Below, in pieces: positions 45,654 to 54,344 of a stretch of DNA of 64,000 nt. Location of the stretch: positions 2,976,001-3,040,000 of the forward strand of contig CP119753.1 of assembly GCA_029319145.1 (NCBI GenBank), read 5' to 3'. The notes below the pieces were generated by a model. It saw only the letters and a program-made list of their open reading frames with translations, had not been told where the DNA came from and did no database searches. Source of the stretch: Microbacter sp. GSS18 (GTDB taxonomy: Bacteria; Actinomycetota; Actinomycetes; Actinomycetales; Microbacteriaceae). The stretch's first letter is position 1; every line of letters starts with the position of its first letter. The translations under genes and the position numbers were made by a program.

Positions 45654-46307
45654 TCAGGAGCGCCGCGAGCGATTCCAGCTGGCCTTCGCCGGCGCGAAGG
45701 GGCTGCGCACGTGGATGGACCACGTCGAGTGCGGGTGGATCGAGAGGATCGCCTTCTCCCAGAAGGTCCGCGCCTCCTCCGACAGCAGCGGCAGCACGAT
45801 GTCCTTGTCGGCCTCGTCCTCGGGTTTGGGGTGGAAGGCCTTCCAGATGAGCTGCACCTCGGGAGCACCCGTGGGGATGCCGTCGACGTCGAGCACGGCC
45901 CGTTCCCACGGCAGCTGCAGGCGGGGGTCGCGGCGATACACCCAGCGGTCGGCGGTGCCGTCCTCCATGTTCACCTGCAGCACCCACGCATCCCTCTGGG
46001 CGTCGTAGAGGCGCACGGCGAGGTAGGTGGCATCCTCGGGCAGGTCCGTCCACGGCGTCAGCTCGTCGTCGTCCGAGACCCACGCGGTGGTTCCCACCGG
46101 CAGCGCCTCGACGAGCTGGGCGACCTGAGCGTACGGCAGGCTCACGGTCGTCTTGTCGCGTTCACGCAGCGGTTCGCCCATCCACTGGTCGTAGGCGGAT
46201 CCGCCCGAGAGCCACCAGCGGACGGGGGTCGGAGCGAGCAGCTCCGCGACATCCGCGGCGTCGAGCCGCTCCCACCGCGTCGCCTGGTTCGGCGTGGATT
46301 CAGCCAT
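45654..46307 (-). CDS. Nucleotidyltransferase-like protein with altered active site
   Basis: 217 residues. RWWLSGGSAYDQWMGEPLRERDKTTVSL near residue 30 matches the GG-A-D...R segment of aminoglycoside adenylyltransferase-like proteins, but the catalytic DxD that normally follows (R-x-H-x-D-I-D-x) is replaced by DKTTVSL. YRRDPRLQLPWERAV later resembles the same family. Probably not an active nucleotidyltransferase by the standard mechanism. A leaderless-type -10 precedes it. Confidence 0.6.
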   Translation of the reverse strand: MAESTPNQATRWERLDAADVAELLAPTPVRWWLSGGSAYDQWMGEPLRERDKTTVSLPYAQVAQLVEALPVGTTAWVSDDDELTPWTDLPEDATYLAVRLYDAQRDAWVLQVNMEDGTADRWVYRRDPRLQLPWERAVLDVDGIPTGAPEVQLIWKAFHPKPEDEADKDIVLPLLSEEARTFWEKAILSIHPHSTWSIHVRSPFAPAKASWNRSRRS

Positions 46308-47901: not shown

Positions 47902-49077
47902 TCAGGCGACGGACCGAGCGGTGCGCGGACGCAGCGCGGCGGTGATCTCGGCGACGGCCGCGCGGCCCGCTCGGTTGGCGCCGACGGTGGACTGCGAGGG
48001 CCCGTAGCCGATCAGGTGCAGCCGCGGTTCGTCCTGCACCCGCGTGCCGCTGACGGCGATGCCGCCGGCCGGGTTGCGCAGGCCGAGCGGCTCGAGGTGG
48101 GCGAGGGCGGGCCGGAAGCCGGTGGCCCAGACGATCGTGTCGATCGGCGTGAACGACCCGTCCGCCTCGCGCACCCCGTCGGGTTCGATCGCGCTGAACA
48201 TCGGGCGGCGGTCGAGCACGCCGCGCTCCTCGGCGGCGCGGGTGTACGAGGTGTGCGGGAGCCCGGTGTACGAGACCACGCTCCGCGGGGCACGCCCTGC
48301 CTCGGCGTCCGCGGTCACCCGGGCGATCACCTCGCGCCCCACCGTCTCGGGCTCGAACTCGACGTCGAGCCATCGCGGCTCGCGGCGTGTGTACCAGAAC
48401 ACGGGGGCGACCCGCGAGATCTCCTCGAGATGCTGCACCGCCGAGATGCCTCCGCCGACGATCGCGACGCGGTGGCCCGCGAACTCCTGGAGGGACGCGT
48501 AGTCGCGGGTGTGCAGCTGACGTCCGCGGAACGTCGCGGCGCCGGCGTACTCGGGGCGCAGCGGGTTGTCCCACGTGCCGGTCGCGTTGATGACGGAACC
48601 GGCCAGCCACGCCCCGCGATCGGTCTCGACGAGCAGGTCGCCGTGCGGGTCGACATCCACGCGCGCGACGCTCGTCACGTGCACGGGCCGGACGATCGGC
48701 AGATCGAACGCGCGTTCATAGTCTGCGAAGTAGTCGGGGACGGCCTGCCGACTGGCGGCGTGGGGATCCACGTCGCGCTGCGCCATCCCGGGCAGGTCGA
48801 AGATGCCGTTGACCGTCTCCATCGTCAGCGACGGCCACCGGTGCTGCCACGCACCGCCGGGCCGGCTGTTCGCGTCGAAGACGACGAAGGTGCGGTCGCC
48901 GGCCGGGTCGGCGACCGCACTGGTGAAGCCGCGCCGCTGCAGGTGGTGGGCAGCGGACAGGCCCGCTTGGCCGGCCCCGATGACCACGACCGTCGCGCGC
49001 GCGGGCTCCCCCAAGCCTCCGGTCCGCATGCCGTCGTCATCCACGCTCGAGGACAACGCCTCGCGACCGACTTCCAT
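47902..49077 (-). CDS. Flavin-containing monooxygenase-like oxidoreductase
   Basis: 391 residues. FAD site VVVIGAGQAGLSAAHHL near residue 30, an NADPH-type Rossmann site VAIVGGGISAVQHL near 205, and the closing ATG motif IVWATGFRPAL near 320. The family includes FMO/trk-type and Baeyer-Villiger enzymes; there is no full BVMO fingerprint. Start uncertain: ATG 49077 (used) or ATG 49029. It lies 38 nt after the MarR-GNAT-dehydrogenase fusion gene and is probably co-transcribed with it. Confidence 0.82.
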   Translation of the reverse strand: MEVGREALSSSVDDDGMRTGGLGEPARATVVVIGAGQAGLSAAHHLQRRGFTSAVADPAGDRTFVVFDANSRPGGAWQHRWPSLTMETVNGIFDLPGMAQRDVDPHAASRQAVPDYFADYERAFDLPIVRPVHVTSVARVDVDPHGDLLVETDRGAWLAGSVINATGTWDNPLRPEYAGAATFRGRQLHTRDYASLQEFAGHRVAIVGGGISAVQHLEEISRVAPVFWYTRREPRWLDVEFEPETVGREVIARVTADAEAGRAPRSVVSYTGLPHTSYTRAAEERGVLDRRPMFSAIEPDGVREADGSFTPIDTIVWATGFRPALAHLEPLGLRNPAGGIAVSGTRVQDEPRLHLIGYGPSQSTVGANRAGRAAVAEITAALRPRTARSVA

Positions 49078-49115: not shown

Positions 49116-50894
49116 CTACGCCTGCGCGTTCAGGTCGCTCATCGTCTCGATGACCGCGATGGCGTCGAGGTGCCCATCGCCCCGCGCGACACCGTCGGCG
49201 AAGAGCTGCGCGCACACGTCGATCACGGGTGTCGCGATCCCCGCGGCGCGGGCCGCCCCGAGGATCAGGCCGGCGTTGGCGGCCCCGTCCGCGACGGACG
49301 CCTGCGCGGACATGTCCGCCCGCACGAGCTTGTCGGTCTTGACGCGTGAGATCGGCGACGACATCTGCCCGGCATCGAGGATCTGACGAAGCACGGCGAG
49401 GTCGACCCCGTGCTCCCGCCCGAAGTGGAACGACTCGGCCAGGCCGGTCAGCAGCGACACGAGGAAGACGTTGACGCTGAGCTTCATCGTGAGGGCGCCG
49501 GGCACCTCGCCGCACGGTGTGACCTGCGCGCACAGGGGGGTCATGAGGGGACGGACGCGGGAGACCGCGTCCTCCGGCCCCGCGATCATCGCGAGGAGCT
49601 CGCCGTTCTGCGCAGGCACGCGCGAGCCCGACACCGGCGCTTCGACGTAGGTGCCGCCGGCGGCGCGGATGTCCTCGTCGAGCCGCCGAGATGCCTCCGG
49701 CGCGATCGTCCCCATGTTCACGAGGGTCCGGCCCGCGACGAAGGAGCCGATCGCCCCGGTGTCGTCGCGGATCACGGCGTCGATGGCCTGCTCGTTGCGG
49801 AGCATCATGATGACCGTGTCGGATGCCGCGAACACATCGGCGGGTGTCGGTGCCGCGACCGCGCCCGCGCTCTCGAGGTCGCGCAGGGCGGCATCCGAGC
49901 GATTCCAGACCGTGAGCGGCACGCCGGCCCCGACGAGCCGCCGCGCCATGATCGACCCCATCAGCCCGAGCCCGAGGAATCCGGCCCGGCCGTGCGTCAG
50001 ATGCTTCTCGAACCAGTGATGCGCGTACGGCTCGTCGTTGAACGCGGGGATCTCGGTGTAGCCGGCCGTGCGGTACAGCCGGATCGCCTCGGTGAGGTTG
50101 CGGTTGGTGTCGAGCCGCACGACCGTCGCCTCGGCGTCGCGGGCGACGTCCTCGATCGCGTTGAGCAGGCGTCGCCCGAGCCCCGTTCCACGCACCTGCC
50201 GCGCCACCCACAGGCGCTTGATCTCACCGACGCCGTCGTGATGCAGCTTCACCCCGACGCATCCGACGGGCACGCCCTTGAGGGTCGCGAGCAGGAACCG
50301 TCCGGCCGGCGGGCGCATCGAGTCGCCGGGAGTGGGCCGCGTGACAGCCGGGTCGAAGGTGACGTCGAACCGCTCGGCGAGCACGGCGAAGTACTCGCCG
50401 ATGGCGAACCGTCCCTCGACGGAGTCCGGGTCGGCCTCGCCGACCTCGACGGCGGATGCCGTGAAGAGCCGTTGCACGGTCGACGCGGCGTCGACGAGCT
50501 CCTGCTGCTGGCTCTCGGTGAGCGGCGACAGGATGGCGTCGGCGAGCTCGTCCGAGCGGTCGTCCAGGACGTCGATCTCGGCCCGGCCCGCGGGTGTCGG
50601 CACGGCGCGGCGGACCCGGCTGTCGTCGCCGGAGGCGACCGTCTCCACCAGTCCCTCGGTCTCGAGCGACCGCAGCAGGCGGCTGAGGTATCCGGAGTCG
50701 AGGTCCAGCCGCGCGCGGAGCTCGCGCACGTCCGCGCCGTCCCTGCCGATCTCCCACAGCAGGCGGTCGAGGGCGAGCGAGCGCCCGCGGTCGAGGTAGT
50801 GATCTTCGAGGACGCCGATGCGCTCGGTCACCGTGCGGTTGAAGGCGCGCAGAATGCTGATGCGGTCTGTTCCACGAGGGGGGCTGTCCGACAT
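49116..50894 (-). CDS. Fusion protein: MarR regulator, GNAT acetyltransferase and beta-hydroxyacid dehydrogenase
   Basis: 592 residues in one uninterrupted frame. Residues 1-145 are a MarR winged helix (LDLDSGYLSRLLRSLETEGL, then SRVRRAVPTPAGR). Residues about 150-298 are a GNAT domain (GEIKRLWVARQVRGTGLGRRLL, ending TEAIRLYRTAGYTEI). Residues about 303-592 are a 3-hydroxyisobutyrate dehydrogenase-type enzyme with GFLGLGLMGSIMARRL, the PVSGSRVPAQNGEL motif and catalytic K471 in GALTMKLSVN. MarR-GNAT fusions are known; the third domain joined in frame is unusual. Seam near 49985-50000. Confidence 0.85.
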   Translation of the reverse strand: MSDSPPRGTDRISILRAFNRTVTERIGVLEDHYLDRGRSLALDRLLWEIGRDGADVRELRARLDLDSGYLSRLLRSLETEGLVETVASGDDSRVRRAVPTPAGRAEIDVLDDRSDELADAILSPLTESQQQELVDAASTVQRLFTASAVEVGEADPDSVEGRFAIGEYFAVLAERFDVTFDPAVTRPTPGDSMRPPAGRFLLATLKGVPVGCVGVKLHHDGVGEIKRLWVARQVRGTGLGRRLLNAIEDVARDAEATVVRLDTNRNLTEAIRLYRTAGYTEIPAFNDEPYAHHWFEKHLTHGRAGFLGLGLMGSIMARRLVGAGVPLTVWNRSDAALRDLESAGAVAAPTPADVFAASDTVIMMLRNEQAIDAVIRDDTGAIGSFVAGRTLVNMGTIAPEASRRLDEDIRAAGGTYVEAPVSGSRVPAQNGELLAMIAGPEDAVSRVRPLMTPLCAQVTPCGEVPGALTMKLSVNVFLVSLLTGLAESFHFGREHGVDLAVLRQILDAGQMSSPISRVKTDKLVRADMSAQASVADGAANAGLILGAARAAGIATPVIDVCAQLFADGVARGDGHLDAIAVIETMSDLNAQA

Positions 50895-50898
50895 ACCT

Positions 50899-50916
50899 CT
50901 GACTTTAGTCAGCTAA
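50899..50916. promoter_or_regulatory. MarR-type operator and leaderless -10
   Basis: CTGAC-TTTA-GTCAG (50899-50912) overlaps a second inverted pair TTAG/CTAA ending at 50916. On the minus strand TAAAGT (50907-50902) sits seven nucleotides before the ATG at 50894, so the palindrome covers the presumed -10. A position expected for autorepression. Confidence 0.6.
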
Positions 50917-51021: not shown

Positions 51022-54000
51022 TCAGCCGAGCAGGTGCTCCAGCGAGCGGGCCATGACCTCGTTGCGCTCGTCCGCCGTCGAGATGCCCTCGAAGCCGAAG
51101 CCGAACAGCAGCGTGTCGTCGGTGGCGACGATCGCGGCGACCTCGAAGAGGACGCCCACGCGCTCCCAGTCGTTGGCGTTGCCGGCGCTGCCCTCGGGCG
51201 CTCCGGGCACCGACCACGCGCCGAGACCATCCTCGAAGCTCTCTGTCGTCGCGCTGCCGTCGATGTCGACCACGACGTCATCGATGAAGACACCGAGATC
51301 GCCCGTCGCCCAGTCGGTGGCGTAGCTGATCGACACCTCGATCTCGCTGCCCGCGTAGGCGGACAGATCGATCGACCACTCCTCGACGCCGTCCGACGCA
51401 CCGGTGGCGGCGTTCCACGCGCCGGTCGAGCCGCTCGGGTTGCAGTCGGCATCCTGGTAGCGGAACAGGAACGGATGCAGCTCGTCGGCCCAACCGGAAT
51501 CACACGAGTCGCCGGTGCCGGTGCCGGTGTGGCCGTTGGCGTCCGGCAGCGTGGTCCAGTCATCCTGGCCCACCGTGTGGACCTCGACGAACATGTAGTC
51601 CCAGTTGGCCTCGATGGCGTACGACGTCGAGAACTCCAGGCTCGCGGCGGTCGCTCCCGTCAGGTCGATCGTGCGCGCCAGCCGCTTGTAGGCGGCATCC
51701 GCGTGATCGGTCGCCATCTGCCATTCACCGGTGACCGGCTCGTATGGGGTGAGGCCCCCGACGTCCCAGCTGGCGAACCGCTCCGAGGCGAACTGCGGGA
51801 ACTCGTCCTCGGGCAGCACGCTCGACGTCACGATGAACGATGCCGTTCCCGTGCCGCCGGTGGGGTTCGGGGCACCGTCGCCCGCGCCCTGGTTGTTGGC
51901 GCTGTCCCCTCCGTCGAGACCGAACGTGAAGCCGTCGAAGACTCCGCCGTTGCCGCGGACGTCGAGCGCCGTCAGGTCGGCCGCGAGGCCACCGCGGCGG
52001 GCCCTGCTGTTCGCGCCGAACCAGTACTGGTAGACGTCGTCGGTCATCACGAGGCAGTCACCGCCGTGGCACACCTGATCGGGCGCGCCGTTGGTGCCGT
52101 AATCCAACGGGAAGAACTCCTCGAAGCCGTGGTTCTTGCCGGTCGCAAGGATCTTGCCGCCCTCGTTGAGGTAGTCGCGCATGACCATGTTCATCTCGTG
52201 CGCGACGAGGGTGGTGTCGAGTCCGCCCTGGTAGTCGGTGACGAGCTTGTCGCCTTCGTACCAGATCACGGCGTCGTAGTGACTGAGGACGCCGGTGGCG
52301 TTGGGCGCCGGCCCGGTGACCCCCACGTCGTACACGTCGTAGCTCACGCCGTTGGCGTCAAGCGCATCGGTGTAGTAGTCGAGGTACTGCAGCGGGGCGC
52401 CGCCGCCGAGCCCGGTGCCCGGGCTGTTGTCCGAGACGATCAGCACGTCGGCTCCGGTGCCCTCGGCCGACACGTCGAAGGCGAATCGATCGCTCTCGAC
52501 CTTGGTCGCCTTCGCGCCCCCGCCGCCGGAGGGCGTGTCGACCGCGCTGAACCACACCTCCACGGAGTCACCCGGAGCGAGCCCCGACACCGTCCCCCGG
52601 TACTCGCCGTACCAGAGGTTGCCCTCATTGCCGTAGACCTCGCCGCCGGCCCATTCGCTGACCGCCTGGCTGGTCGCCGTGCCGCCGTTGATGGAGCTGT
52701 GCATGCGCAGCTGCTTGAACTCGCGCTTGGCCCATACGGCGACCTCCTGCGAGCTGCCCCAGCTCTCGTCGAACTCCTGGATCTCGAAGTCGGCCGCTTC
52801 GAGGCCGAGCGACGAGATCGGGTTGGCGGGGTCTTCCGCCGACTCGGCGAGCGAGAGGGCGTAATCCAGGTTGCGTTCGAACTCCGCCTGGACGAGCGCC
52901 TCGTCGTCGGGGAACTCGAACTGCGAACGGCCGACGCAGTAGTCGCCGGGGAGCGTGCTCTCGGGGTAGGTCAGCGCCGTCTGGCACGTCGCCAGTTCGG
53001 GCGTGTACGCCATGATCCCGTGAGCGTCACCGGCGTGATCGGTCGTGTCGCCGTTCGTGATGTACAACTCGGCCGACAGGTCGGGGTCGTACCCCGGGAT
53101 CGCCGGATCGGCATCGTCACCCGCGAGCGCGATGTTGATGATGTCATCCGGGCTCGGCGAGTCCACCTGCCAGCCCGTGCCGTAGAGGATCAGCTCGGCG
53201 GCCGAGTGGTAGTTGACCATGAACGAGAAGTCGATCGACCCCATCAAGGCGTCCATCGCCTGCGTCTCGGGCTCGGACTGCGGTGCCGTGCCGCGGTAGG
53301 TCTGGCCACTCGGATTGTCGCTGGACCCCTCGTTGTCGTAGCCCCAGTTGGTCGCGAAGTTGCGGTTGAGGTCGACGCCGTCGATCGTCGTGATCTCGCC
53401 GTCGCCGTTGTTGTCGGCGAGGTTCTTGCGCCACAGGCGCTGGCCGTCCTCGAACGTCCAGTCGTACCCGTCGGGGTTCGCCGAGATGACGAACCACAGC
53501 TCGGTCGAGTCGACGATGTCGGTCACCTGCTGGTCGCTGCCGTAGTTCGACAGGATGTACTTCAGCAGGCGGCTGTTCACCTCGGGCGTGATCCACTCGC
53601 GTGCATGCTGGCTCGCGATGTACAGCACGGCGGGGCGCGAGCCCGCGGCCTTCGTGTCGGCCTTCTCGGTCACACGCATGGCGTAGATGTCCTGGCCCTG
53701 CACCGACTGGCCGATCGTGATCAGCTCGGTGAGGTCGTCGTACTTCTGCGCGAGGAACTCCATCTCCTCTTTGTGGCCGCCGGGGCTCGACCACTTGCGG
53801 AAGACGTCGTAGCCGTCGTCGCCCTCCTCGAAGGCGGCGTCGACCGTCGGCACCCCGTCCTTGTTGCGCTTCAGGTCGATGTCGAGGTCGTACGCCTTGT
53901 TCGCCTTGTTGGCCTCGGCGGGCGACATGACCACCTCGACGTGCAGGGTGTCGTCGCCGTTCGGCTCCGTGGAGACGACGTCGTATCCCTCGGCGATCAT

Positions 54001-54180
54001 CGCGGCGAGCACATCGGCGGTGGCGTCGAACTCGTAGAGGTCGAGGCGCCCACCCGCATCCGAATGCTCGGGCGGTGACGTGTCCGGCGGGTCGGCGTGA
54101 GCGGTGGTCGGCAGCAGGGCCAGGCCGAGAGCGGCTGTAGCTGCAAGGGCAAGATACTTCACCCGCGAACGCGTGATCAT
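51022..54180 (-). CDS. Secreted M14 zinc carboxypeptidase with long C-terminal region
   Basis: 1052 residues. Signal peptide with AHA cleavage at A29. M14 catalytic core: zinc ligands H192 and E195 (SQHAREWI), substrate-binding N272-R273 (LNRNF) and third zinc ligand H325 (NYHSAAEL). Residues about 570-720 have an amidotransferase-like fold (VLIVSDNSP, then a VIWYEGDKL stretch), and about 800-1000 a MAM/immune-inhibitor-A-like beta region ending SAYAGSEIEVSISYATDW. Likely degrades extracellular peptides; the function of the C-terminal modules is not known. AAGGGGG precedes the ATG. Confidence 0.9.
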   Translation of the reverse strand: MITRSRVKYLALAATAALGLALLPTTAHADPPDTSPPEHSDAGGRLDLYEFDATADVLAAMIAEGYDVVSTEPNGDDTLHVEVVMSPAEANKANKAYDLDIDLKRNKDGVPTVDAAFEEGDDGYDVFRKWSSPGGHKEEMEFLAQKYDDLTELITIGQSVQGQDIYAMRVTEKADTKAAGSRPAVLYIASQHAREWITPEVNSRLLKYILSNYGSDQQVTDIVDSTELWFVISANPDGYDWTFEDGQRLWRKNLADNNGDGEITTIDGVDLNRNFATNWGYDNEGSSDNPSGQTYRGTAPQSEPETQAMDALMGSIDFSFMVNYHSAAELILYGTGWQVDSPSPDDIINIALAGDDADPAIPGYDPDLSAELYITNGDTTDHAGDAHGIMAYTPELATCQTALTYPESTLPGDYCVGRSQFEFPDDEALVQAEFERNLDYALSLAESAEDPANPISSLGLEAADFEIQEFDESWGSSQEVAVWAKREFKQLRMHSSINGGTATSQAVSEWAGGEVYGNEGNLWYGEYRGTVSGLAPGDSVEVWFSAVDTPSGGGGAKATKVESDRFAFDVSAEGTGADVLIVSDNSPGTGLGGGAPLQYLDYYTDALDANGVSYDVYDVGVTGPAPNATGVLSHYDAVIWYEGDKLVTDYQGGLDTTLVAHEMNMVMRDYLNEGGKILATGKNHGFEEFFPLDYGTNGAPDQVCHGGDCLVMTDDVYQYWFGANSRARRGGLAADLTALDVRGNGGVFDGFTFGLDGGDSANNQGAGDGAPNPTGGTGTASFIVTSSVLPEDEFPQFASERFASWDVGGLTPYEPVTGEWQMATDHADAAYKRLARTIDLTGATAASLEFSTSYAIEANWDYMFVEVHTVGQDDWTTLPDANGHTGTGTGDSCDSGWADELHPFLFRYQDADCNPSGSTGAWNAATGASDGVEEWSIDLSAYAGSEIEVSISYATDWATGDLGVFIDDVVVDIDGSATTESFEDGLGAWSVPGAPEGSAGNANDWERVGVLFEVAAIVATDDTLLFGFGFEGISTADERNEVMARSLEHLLG

Positions 54181-54344
54181 TGGTGCTTTCCCCCTTCGGC
54201 CGCTTCCTTGCGGCCACCGGTCCCGCAGTCGGATCGTGCACGTGGGCATGACCGTACCGGATCTTTCGGTCCGGCGAAACGGGGTCACTGATCAGGCACG
54301 TCACTCGTCGACGGCGGGCATGCGCCCGCGGCTCCGCCGGGCGT

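Follow-up and report, generated by a model that had tools for sequence, protein, structure and literature searches.

We found that a MarR-type winged helix-turn-helix (wHTH), a GNAT acetyltransferase and a beta-hydroxyacid dehydrogenase are joined in one 592-residue chain in the window, i.e. the whole stretch of 64,000 nucleotides that was analysed. This three-module, single-chain architecture is real, and it recurs in seven other genomes. The function that we propose for it, with a probability of roughly 0.55, is a one-gene self-regulating enzyme unit resembling PutA and NadR. The architecture and a palindrome found at the start codon throughout the MarR-GNAT family are solid at the level of sequence, and from these we infer the function.

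The fused gene and its three modules

The frame starts with ATG at 50894 on the minus strand and continues for 592 codons to a stop codon ending at 49116, and a plus-strand reading of the same interval contains a stop (Table 1). The coordinates had been given correctly in an earlier note on this DNA, which had also described one frame with three modules and intact key residues; Pfam and the seven fused homologues agree with that description.

Table 1. Features of the fused gene and its immediate surroundings in the window.
Feature	Position	Strand	Basis or remark
Fusion gene, 592 aa: MarR wHTH, GNAT acetyltransferase, beta-hydroxyacid dehydrogenase	49116..50894	-	Pfam; seven fused homologues
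MarR module, residues 1-145	50460..50894	-	Pfam MarR_2 at 44-93; outer limits are a choice
GNAT module, residues 146-297	50004..50459	-	Pfam Acetyltransf_1; outer limits are a choice
Seam, residues 298-304	49983..50003	-	No in-frame ATG/GTG/TTG ahead of the Rossmann glycines
Beta-hydroxyacid dehydrogenase module, residues 305-592	49119..49982	-	NAD_binding_2, NAD_binding_11; catalytic-type Lys 471
Candidate operator palindrome CTGACTAAAGTCAG	50899..50912	-	4 nt before the ATG of the fusion
TAAAGT, probable -10 element in the operator	50902..50907	-	Inferred from asymmetric conservation of the second-position A
ArsO-like flavin monooxygenase gene, downstream of the fusion	47902..49032	-	Neighbour, not a conserved part

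In the fusion protein, Pfam matched MarR_2 at residues 44-93 (E 4.7e-8), GNAT at residues 194-281 with the model Acetyltransf_1 at 194-279 (E 1.2e-16), NAD_binding_2 at residues 305-461 (E 1.8e-39, 135.8 bits against a cut-off of 21) and NAD_binding_11 at residues 469-583 (E 2.8e-11, 44.2 bits against a cut-off of 30). The first two modules have the order by which we recognised the MarR-GNAT family, a MarR wHTH and then a GNAT domain within about 300 residues, and the window protein showed 74% identity over 299 residues with an unfused MarR-GNAT protein (L027). The catalytic lysine claimed in the earlier note, K471, is common to all eight fused proteins. Together with N475 it forms a KxxxN motif in the window protein, and one fused relative (L024) has Ser at 475.

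The nearest solved relatives of the dehydrogenase module were 3pdu, 3doj and 3pef, which we take to be glyoxylate/succinic-semialdehyde-reductase-like enzymes. Residues 303-592 share with them GxGxxG, EAPVSGS, K471 and N475; unlike these relatives, the window module is fused to a predicted repressor. Near the C-terminus, 3doj and 3pef have K-D, the motif of classical beta-hydroxyacid dehydrogenases, whereas the window protein has A-N and its subfamily mostly [K/M]-N, which indicates a divergent subfamily and not a classical member. The module scored 153.8 bits with the tartronate semialdehyde reductase model TIGR01505 and 118.6 bits with the HIBADH model TIGR01692, far below the NCBIfam cut-offs of 340.75 and 291.6, respectively. 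After its second strand we found WNRS and not an acidic residue; residues of this type in place of the acidic one follow the NADPH rule, and this suggests that the module uses NADPH.

The seam had been described as very tight, and the alignment agrees: five residues (T300-A304) lie between L299 and G305 in the window protein, versus 10-14 residues in the seven other fused proteins. Seam identity was 3/12, 4/13 and 2/7 in three of four compared fused pairs, and 5/7 between the window protein and L176. An in-frame ATG, GTG or TTG between the GNAT domain and GxGxxG was absent from five of the eight fused genes (the window gene, L026, L106, L177 and L178), so that the dehydrogenase would not easily be made alone there. 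The other three (L024, L025 and L176) have a GTG at the seam, where a separate dehydrogenase start is possible.

All three modules of the fused genes look constrained. Between the window gene and its nearest fused relative, L176, the NG86 method gave dN 0.172 and dS 0.895 for the MarR module (dN/dS about 0.19), dN 0.196 and dS 1.123 for GNAT (about 0.17), and dN 0.269 and dS 0.842 for the dehydrogenase (about 0.32). Four pairs of fused genes gave dN/dS values of 0.13 to 0.61 over their modules, ratios that are rough because dS is near saturation. The window fusion keeps 55 of the 59 MarR-GNAT positions that are near-invariant among 110 unfused rows, and 55 of the 60 dehydrogenase positions near-invariant among 45 unfused rows. 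The eight fused proteins missed 1-5 of the former, against 0-6 (mostly 0-2) in unfused rows, and 3-8 of the latter, against 0-7 (mostly 0-2). The fused proteins are thus somewhat more divergent than the unfused ones, partly because the near-invariant positions were defined on unfused rows.

Occurrence and history of the fusion

Seven other genomes encode these three modules within a single open frame, with 54-69% identity to the window protein, giving eight fused genes in total. The GTDB genome collection was scanned with six short peptide patterns, and among the best 80 of the 196 relatives obtained, three proteins spanned the seam in one frame: those of Mycolicibacterium palauense (L024, 60% identity to the window fusion), Phycicoccus endophyticus (L025, 55%) and Myceligenerans indicum (L026, 56%). 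The order sample contained the fusion in 2 of 396 genomes, the window's own and G338 (57%), and the genus sample in 4 of 295, the window's own, G1377 (69%), G1255 (54%) and G1360 (55%). Further fusions were absent from 394 class genomes (E 1e-72) and 398 family genomes (E 1e-50), and 326 phylum-wide genomes at E 1e-110 gave a fusion-level match in the window's own genome only, these samples overlapping one another and having few candidates scored per genome in each search. The phylum-wide result implies that the fusion is not broadly maintained. None of the 30 plasmid records with a match carried a fused copy. The fusion is therefore rare, with four of 295 genus genomes fused, and the arrangement, which the earlier note did not recognise as a known one, is unusual; we found no publication on it.

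Homologues spanning the seam had been set beforehand as the test on which the fusion could fail, and the seven that we found speak for a real fusion. Two genes joined by a sequencing or assembly error might still be suspected, since the nearest MarR-GNAT genes (L027 and L028) end at the seam and a split pair exists in another genome (L029). However, the window genome is a single contig (4.03 Mb, completeness given as 100%), and the open frame is the same in the seven other genomes, several of them without a start codon at the seam. Because of these seven homologues an artefact is very improbable and was rejected; the fusion is no sequencing accident.

In the usual state the MarR-GNAT and dehydrogenase genes are separate, and the other loci examined had no partner gene in their flanks. 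Two loci showed intermediate states. In L029 the MarR-GNAT gene ends at the TGA within a GTGA overlap with the dehydrogenase start; this is a metagenome-assembled genome whose contig name gives a coverage of 1.0, and a frameshift error is possible there. In G208 a MarR-GNAT gene and a dehydrogenase gene form a tandem pair, their matches 53 nt apart.

In the trees, the fused proteins grouped with L029 and a few unfused rows and fell into two sub-clades, one with the window protein and G1377 and one with the remaining six. The window's genus is represented in both (G1377 in the first; G1255 and G1360 in the second), and Phycicoccus, Myceligenerans, G338 and Mycolicibacterium are further members of the second; this distribution suggests horizontal transfer of the fusion. 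A single fused clade was not rejected in the dehydrogenase trees (AU p 0.16 and 0.131), and it was rejected in the MarR-GNAT tree (AU p 0.011; 0.017 with L029 added) because L027 and L028, which have no dehydrogenase, nest inside. No dehydrogenase remnant was found within 12 kb around the L027 gene or within 3.2 kb around the L028 gene. Either loss of the dehydrogenase in some relatives or repeated fusion would explain the conflict between trees. We might picture an evolution in which a MarR-GNAT gene was placed before a dehydrogenase gene and the pair passed from tandem through overlapping to fused. Such a fusion would bring the dehydrogenase under an existing autorepressed promoter, with later loss in some relatives or fusion on more than one occasion.

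Neighbouring genes and the start-codon palindrome

The flavin monooxygenase (FMO) gene downstream of the fusion scored 293.6 bits with the ArsO model NF040505, below the NCBIfam cut-off of 425. The earlier suggestion that this gene may act in the same pathway found little backing. At E 1e-40 its family was found in 57 of the 77 genomes that encode the dehydrogenase, counting that of the window, and by the listed positions it adjoins the dehydrogenase only in the window and in none of the 56 other genomes with both; there it is encoded on a different contig or no less than 98 kb from the dehydrogenase. Nor was an FMO found in 4-6 kb on either side of the seven other fused loci. As a fixed partner it was therefore rejected. 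On plasmid pT1293c of Phyllobacterium sp. T1293 (L196:4992-7065), a stand-alone dehydrogenase gene is directly followed by a gene of the same FMO family (50% identity), with a divergent LysR gene; this pair is one among the 13 plasmid dehydrogenase loci examined, of 17 records found. Given this pair, a link between FMO and dehydrogenase is possible, though not a general one.

With a rough gene caller we detected no neighbour common to the fused genes. Just upstream of the fusion and on the same strand, the window contains a large M14 zinc carboxypeptidase with an InhA-like MAM domain (51022-54288, minus strand), and it also has a frame of 217 aa (45654-46307, minus strand) without a Pfam match at E 1e-5.

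Around unfused dehydrogenases of the same subfamily, 50 open reading frames (ORFs) at 45 loci included 11 TetR, 3 AraC-type and 3 GntR genes, a biased count, since 8 of the 50 ORFs entered it on the strength of an earlier clustering and 8 of the 11 TetR loci came from family code f37. A regulator stood directly beside the dehydrogenase at four of nine annotated plasmid loci (LysR in two Phyllobacterium, PcaQ in Sinorhizobium and TetR in Sphingomonas); at the other five the adjacent gene was none of these. The fusion looks like an extreme form of this habit of unfused dehydrogenases to adjoin a local regulator.

Two further arrangements were observed on plasmids. In Streptomyces sp. NBC_01176 (L212:1915-3912), a GNAT protein of another kind (292 aa, without a MarR match) is encoded directly before a subfamily dehydrogenase. 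In an Agrobacterium plasmid (L213:1222-4856) and in L214, a branched-chain aminotransferase gene is followed by the dehydrogenase gene, with a divergent Lrp/AsnC gene, and the aminotransferase context is a possible substrate clue for that dehydrogenase branch.

The palindrome before the fusion start, CTGACTAAAGTCAG, has no mismatch to the consensus CTGACTNNAGTCAG and is the only exact copy of it in the window genome. We found CTGACTNNAGTCAG within two mismatches at 114 of 116 MarR-GNAT loci, nearly all of them unfused, the two exceptions (L124 and L126) having three mismatches. After removal of two repeats the count was 112 of 114 loci, 78 of them exact, against 16 of 2320 shuffled start regions in the control. 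The first in-frame start codon lies 3-6 nt past the palindrome in 113 of 114 loci. Seven of the eight fused genes were within one mismatch, five of the eight having been in the 116-locus set and the other three scored separately; in L176 the left half of the palindrome has decayed, with 3 mismatches. By record title, the MarR-GNAT loci come from at least four phyla, among them Actinomycetota, Chloroflexota, Acidobacteria and Proteobacteria.

A longer form of the consensus is TTCTCTGACTNNAGTCAGAGAA. In it the A after CTGACT is 100% conserved while its palindromic partner is variable, and this A, the preceding T and the T four bases on form the motif TANAGT. The spacing to the start codon is 3 nt in 68 of 114 loci, and with the A of the ATG as transcription start the last T of TANAGT would then be at -7. 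TANAGT is thus probably the -10 element of a leaderless or near-leaderless promoter inside the operator; the assignment is drawn from conservation, since a sigma-70 consensus scan found no match at the fusion promoter.

Three patterns were searched in the window genome for a wider regulon. For CTGACTNNAGTCAG there was one exact site and one with one mismatch (C1:2541194), not above the reversed-pattern control. Another of the patterns gave no site. The 16-base form TCTGACTANAGTCAGA had no site with fewer than three mismatches in that genome besides the fusion's own, and its sites with three mismatches were fewer than in the control. Extra sites being absent or not above control, a wider regulon was rejected. 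The palindrome is unique in the window genome, so the fusion protein most likely controls only its own gene and thereby its two enzyme modules.

Proposed function and its alternatives

PutA and NadR are autoregulating enzyme-repressors, in which a DNA-binding repressor and two enzyme activities occupy one chain. In the self-regulating unit proposed here, the MarR half, as a dimer, would bind CTGACTNNAGTCAG on the -10 element at the start codon and repress its own transcription. A small molecule, probably one that an enzyme module uses as its substrate or a compound closely related to it, would loosen the repressor, and the chain would be made when needed. The GNAT module would acetylate an amine-type substrate, and the C-terminal dehydrogenase, probably using NADPH, would reduce or oxidise a small hydroxyacid or its aldehyde. 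The two enzymes may serve one shared pathway; we know of no pathway common to GNAT and this dehydrogenase. The folds and substrates of PutA and NadR are unrelated to those of the fusion, whose regulation would resemble theirs in function and not by homology. The earlier note had imagined one polypeptide coupling oxidation, acetylation and transcription control. Such coupling is plausible; the sequence evidence on the last part points to self-regulation and not to wider transcription control.

The MarR-GNAT proteins resemble residues 1-300 of the fusion (40-74% identity) and share its start-codon palindrome; they stop at the seam, beyond which the fusion continues with a dehydrogenase about 290 residues long. 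They are annotated as 'bifunctional helix-turn-helix transcriptional regulator/GNAT family N-acetyltransferase' or 'helix-turn-helix domain-containing GNAT family N-acetyltransferase'. MocR/PdxR proteins, two-module fusions of GntR and an aminotransferase in which the enzyme fold is the ligand sensor, also join a regulator to an enzyme fold, and proteins with GntR and aminotransferase matches adjoin a few unfused dehydrogenases of the window subfamily. By title and abstract we found no paper on the MarR-GNAT family, the palindrome or a regulator-dehydrogenase fusion, with most subscription papers outside the scope of the search, and the exact palindrome strings led to no relevant paper. The MarR-GNAT protein name occurs once in the text of PMC13295564.

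The dehydrogenase might merely ride a regulated promoter, the enzymes having separate jobs and a fused overlap having fixed nothing beyond equal dosage. The GTGA-overlap and tandem intermediates fit such a fusion by convenience, as do a seam of variable length (5-14 residues) whose sequence is also variable in three of the four compared pairs, and the nesting within the fused clade of L027 and L028, with no remnant in the flanks examined. However, the fusion was found in both sub-clades and in four or more families, every module looks constrained, and we regard convenience as unlikely.

Another idea makes the dehydrogenase mainly a sensor or an oligomerisation scaffold, with NADPH/NADP+ or a substrate tuning the repressor. 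MarR proteins and such dehydrogenases self-associate, which favours this idea. So does N-PAC (2uyy), found among the solved relatives, which joins the same dehydrogenase superfamily to DNA-binding modules. According to PMC13144531, the human protein N-PAC/GLYR1 has this combination, with its catalytic lysine replaced by methionine and its dehydrogenase domain forming a scaffold tetramer. It differs from the fusion in having PWWP/AT-hook in place of MarR, no GNAT and a role as a chromatin scaffold, and it is the nearest precedent that we found in print for a dehydrogenase fold on a DNA-binding protein. Unlike N-PAC, all eight fused proteins keep the catalytic-type K471, and the close MarR-GNAT relative L027 keeps the same palindrome without having a dehydrogenase; a scaffold or sensor as the main role is thus rather improbable. 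In a specific form of the idea, residues 303-592 would bind NADP(H) or a hydroxyacid and so alter the DNA binding of the MarR dimer, and GNAT would modify the same metabolite. We hold this form, too, to be quite doubtful. If true, the protein would be a catalytically competent, three-module bacterial counterpart of N-PAC that reads and consumes its own signal.

The fused gene illustrates how a repressor and two enzymes could plausibly have come to share one chain, by way of tandem and then overlapping genes. As the palindrome is single in the window genome, one reporter could serve in a search for the ligand. We found no study of the widespread MarR-GNAT family, for which the family-wide palindrome is new here. 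For this family, a common start-codon palindrome that overlies a likely -10 element, conserved in several phyla, provides a testable handle.
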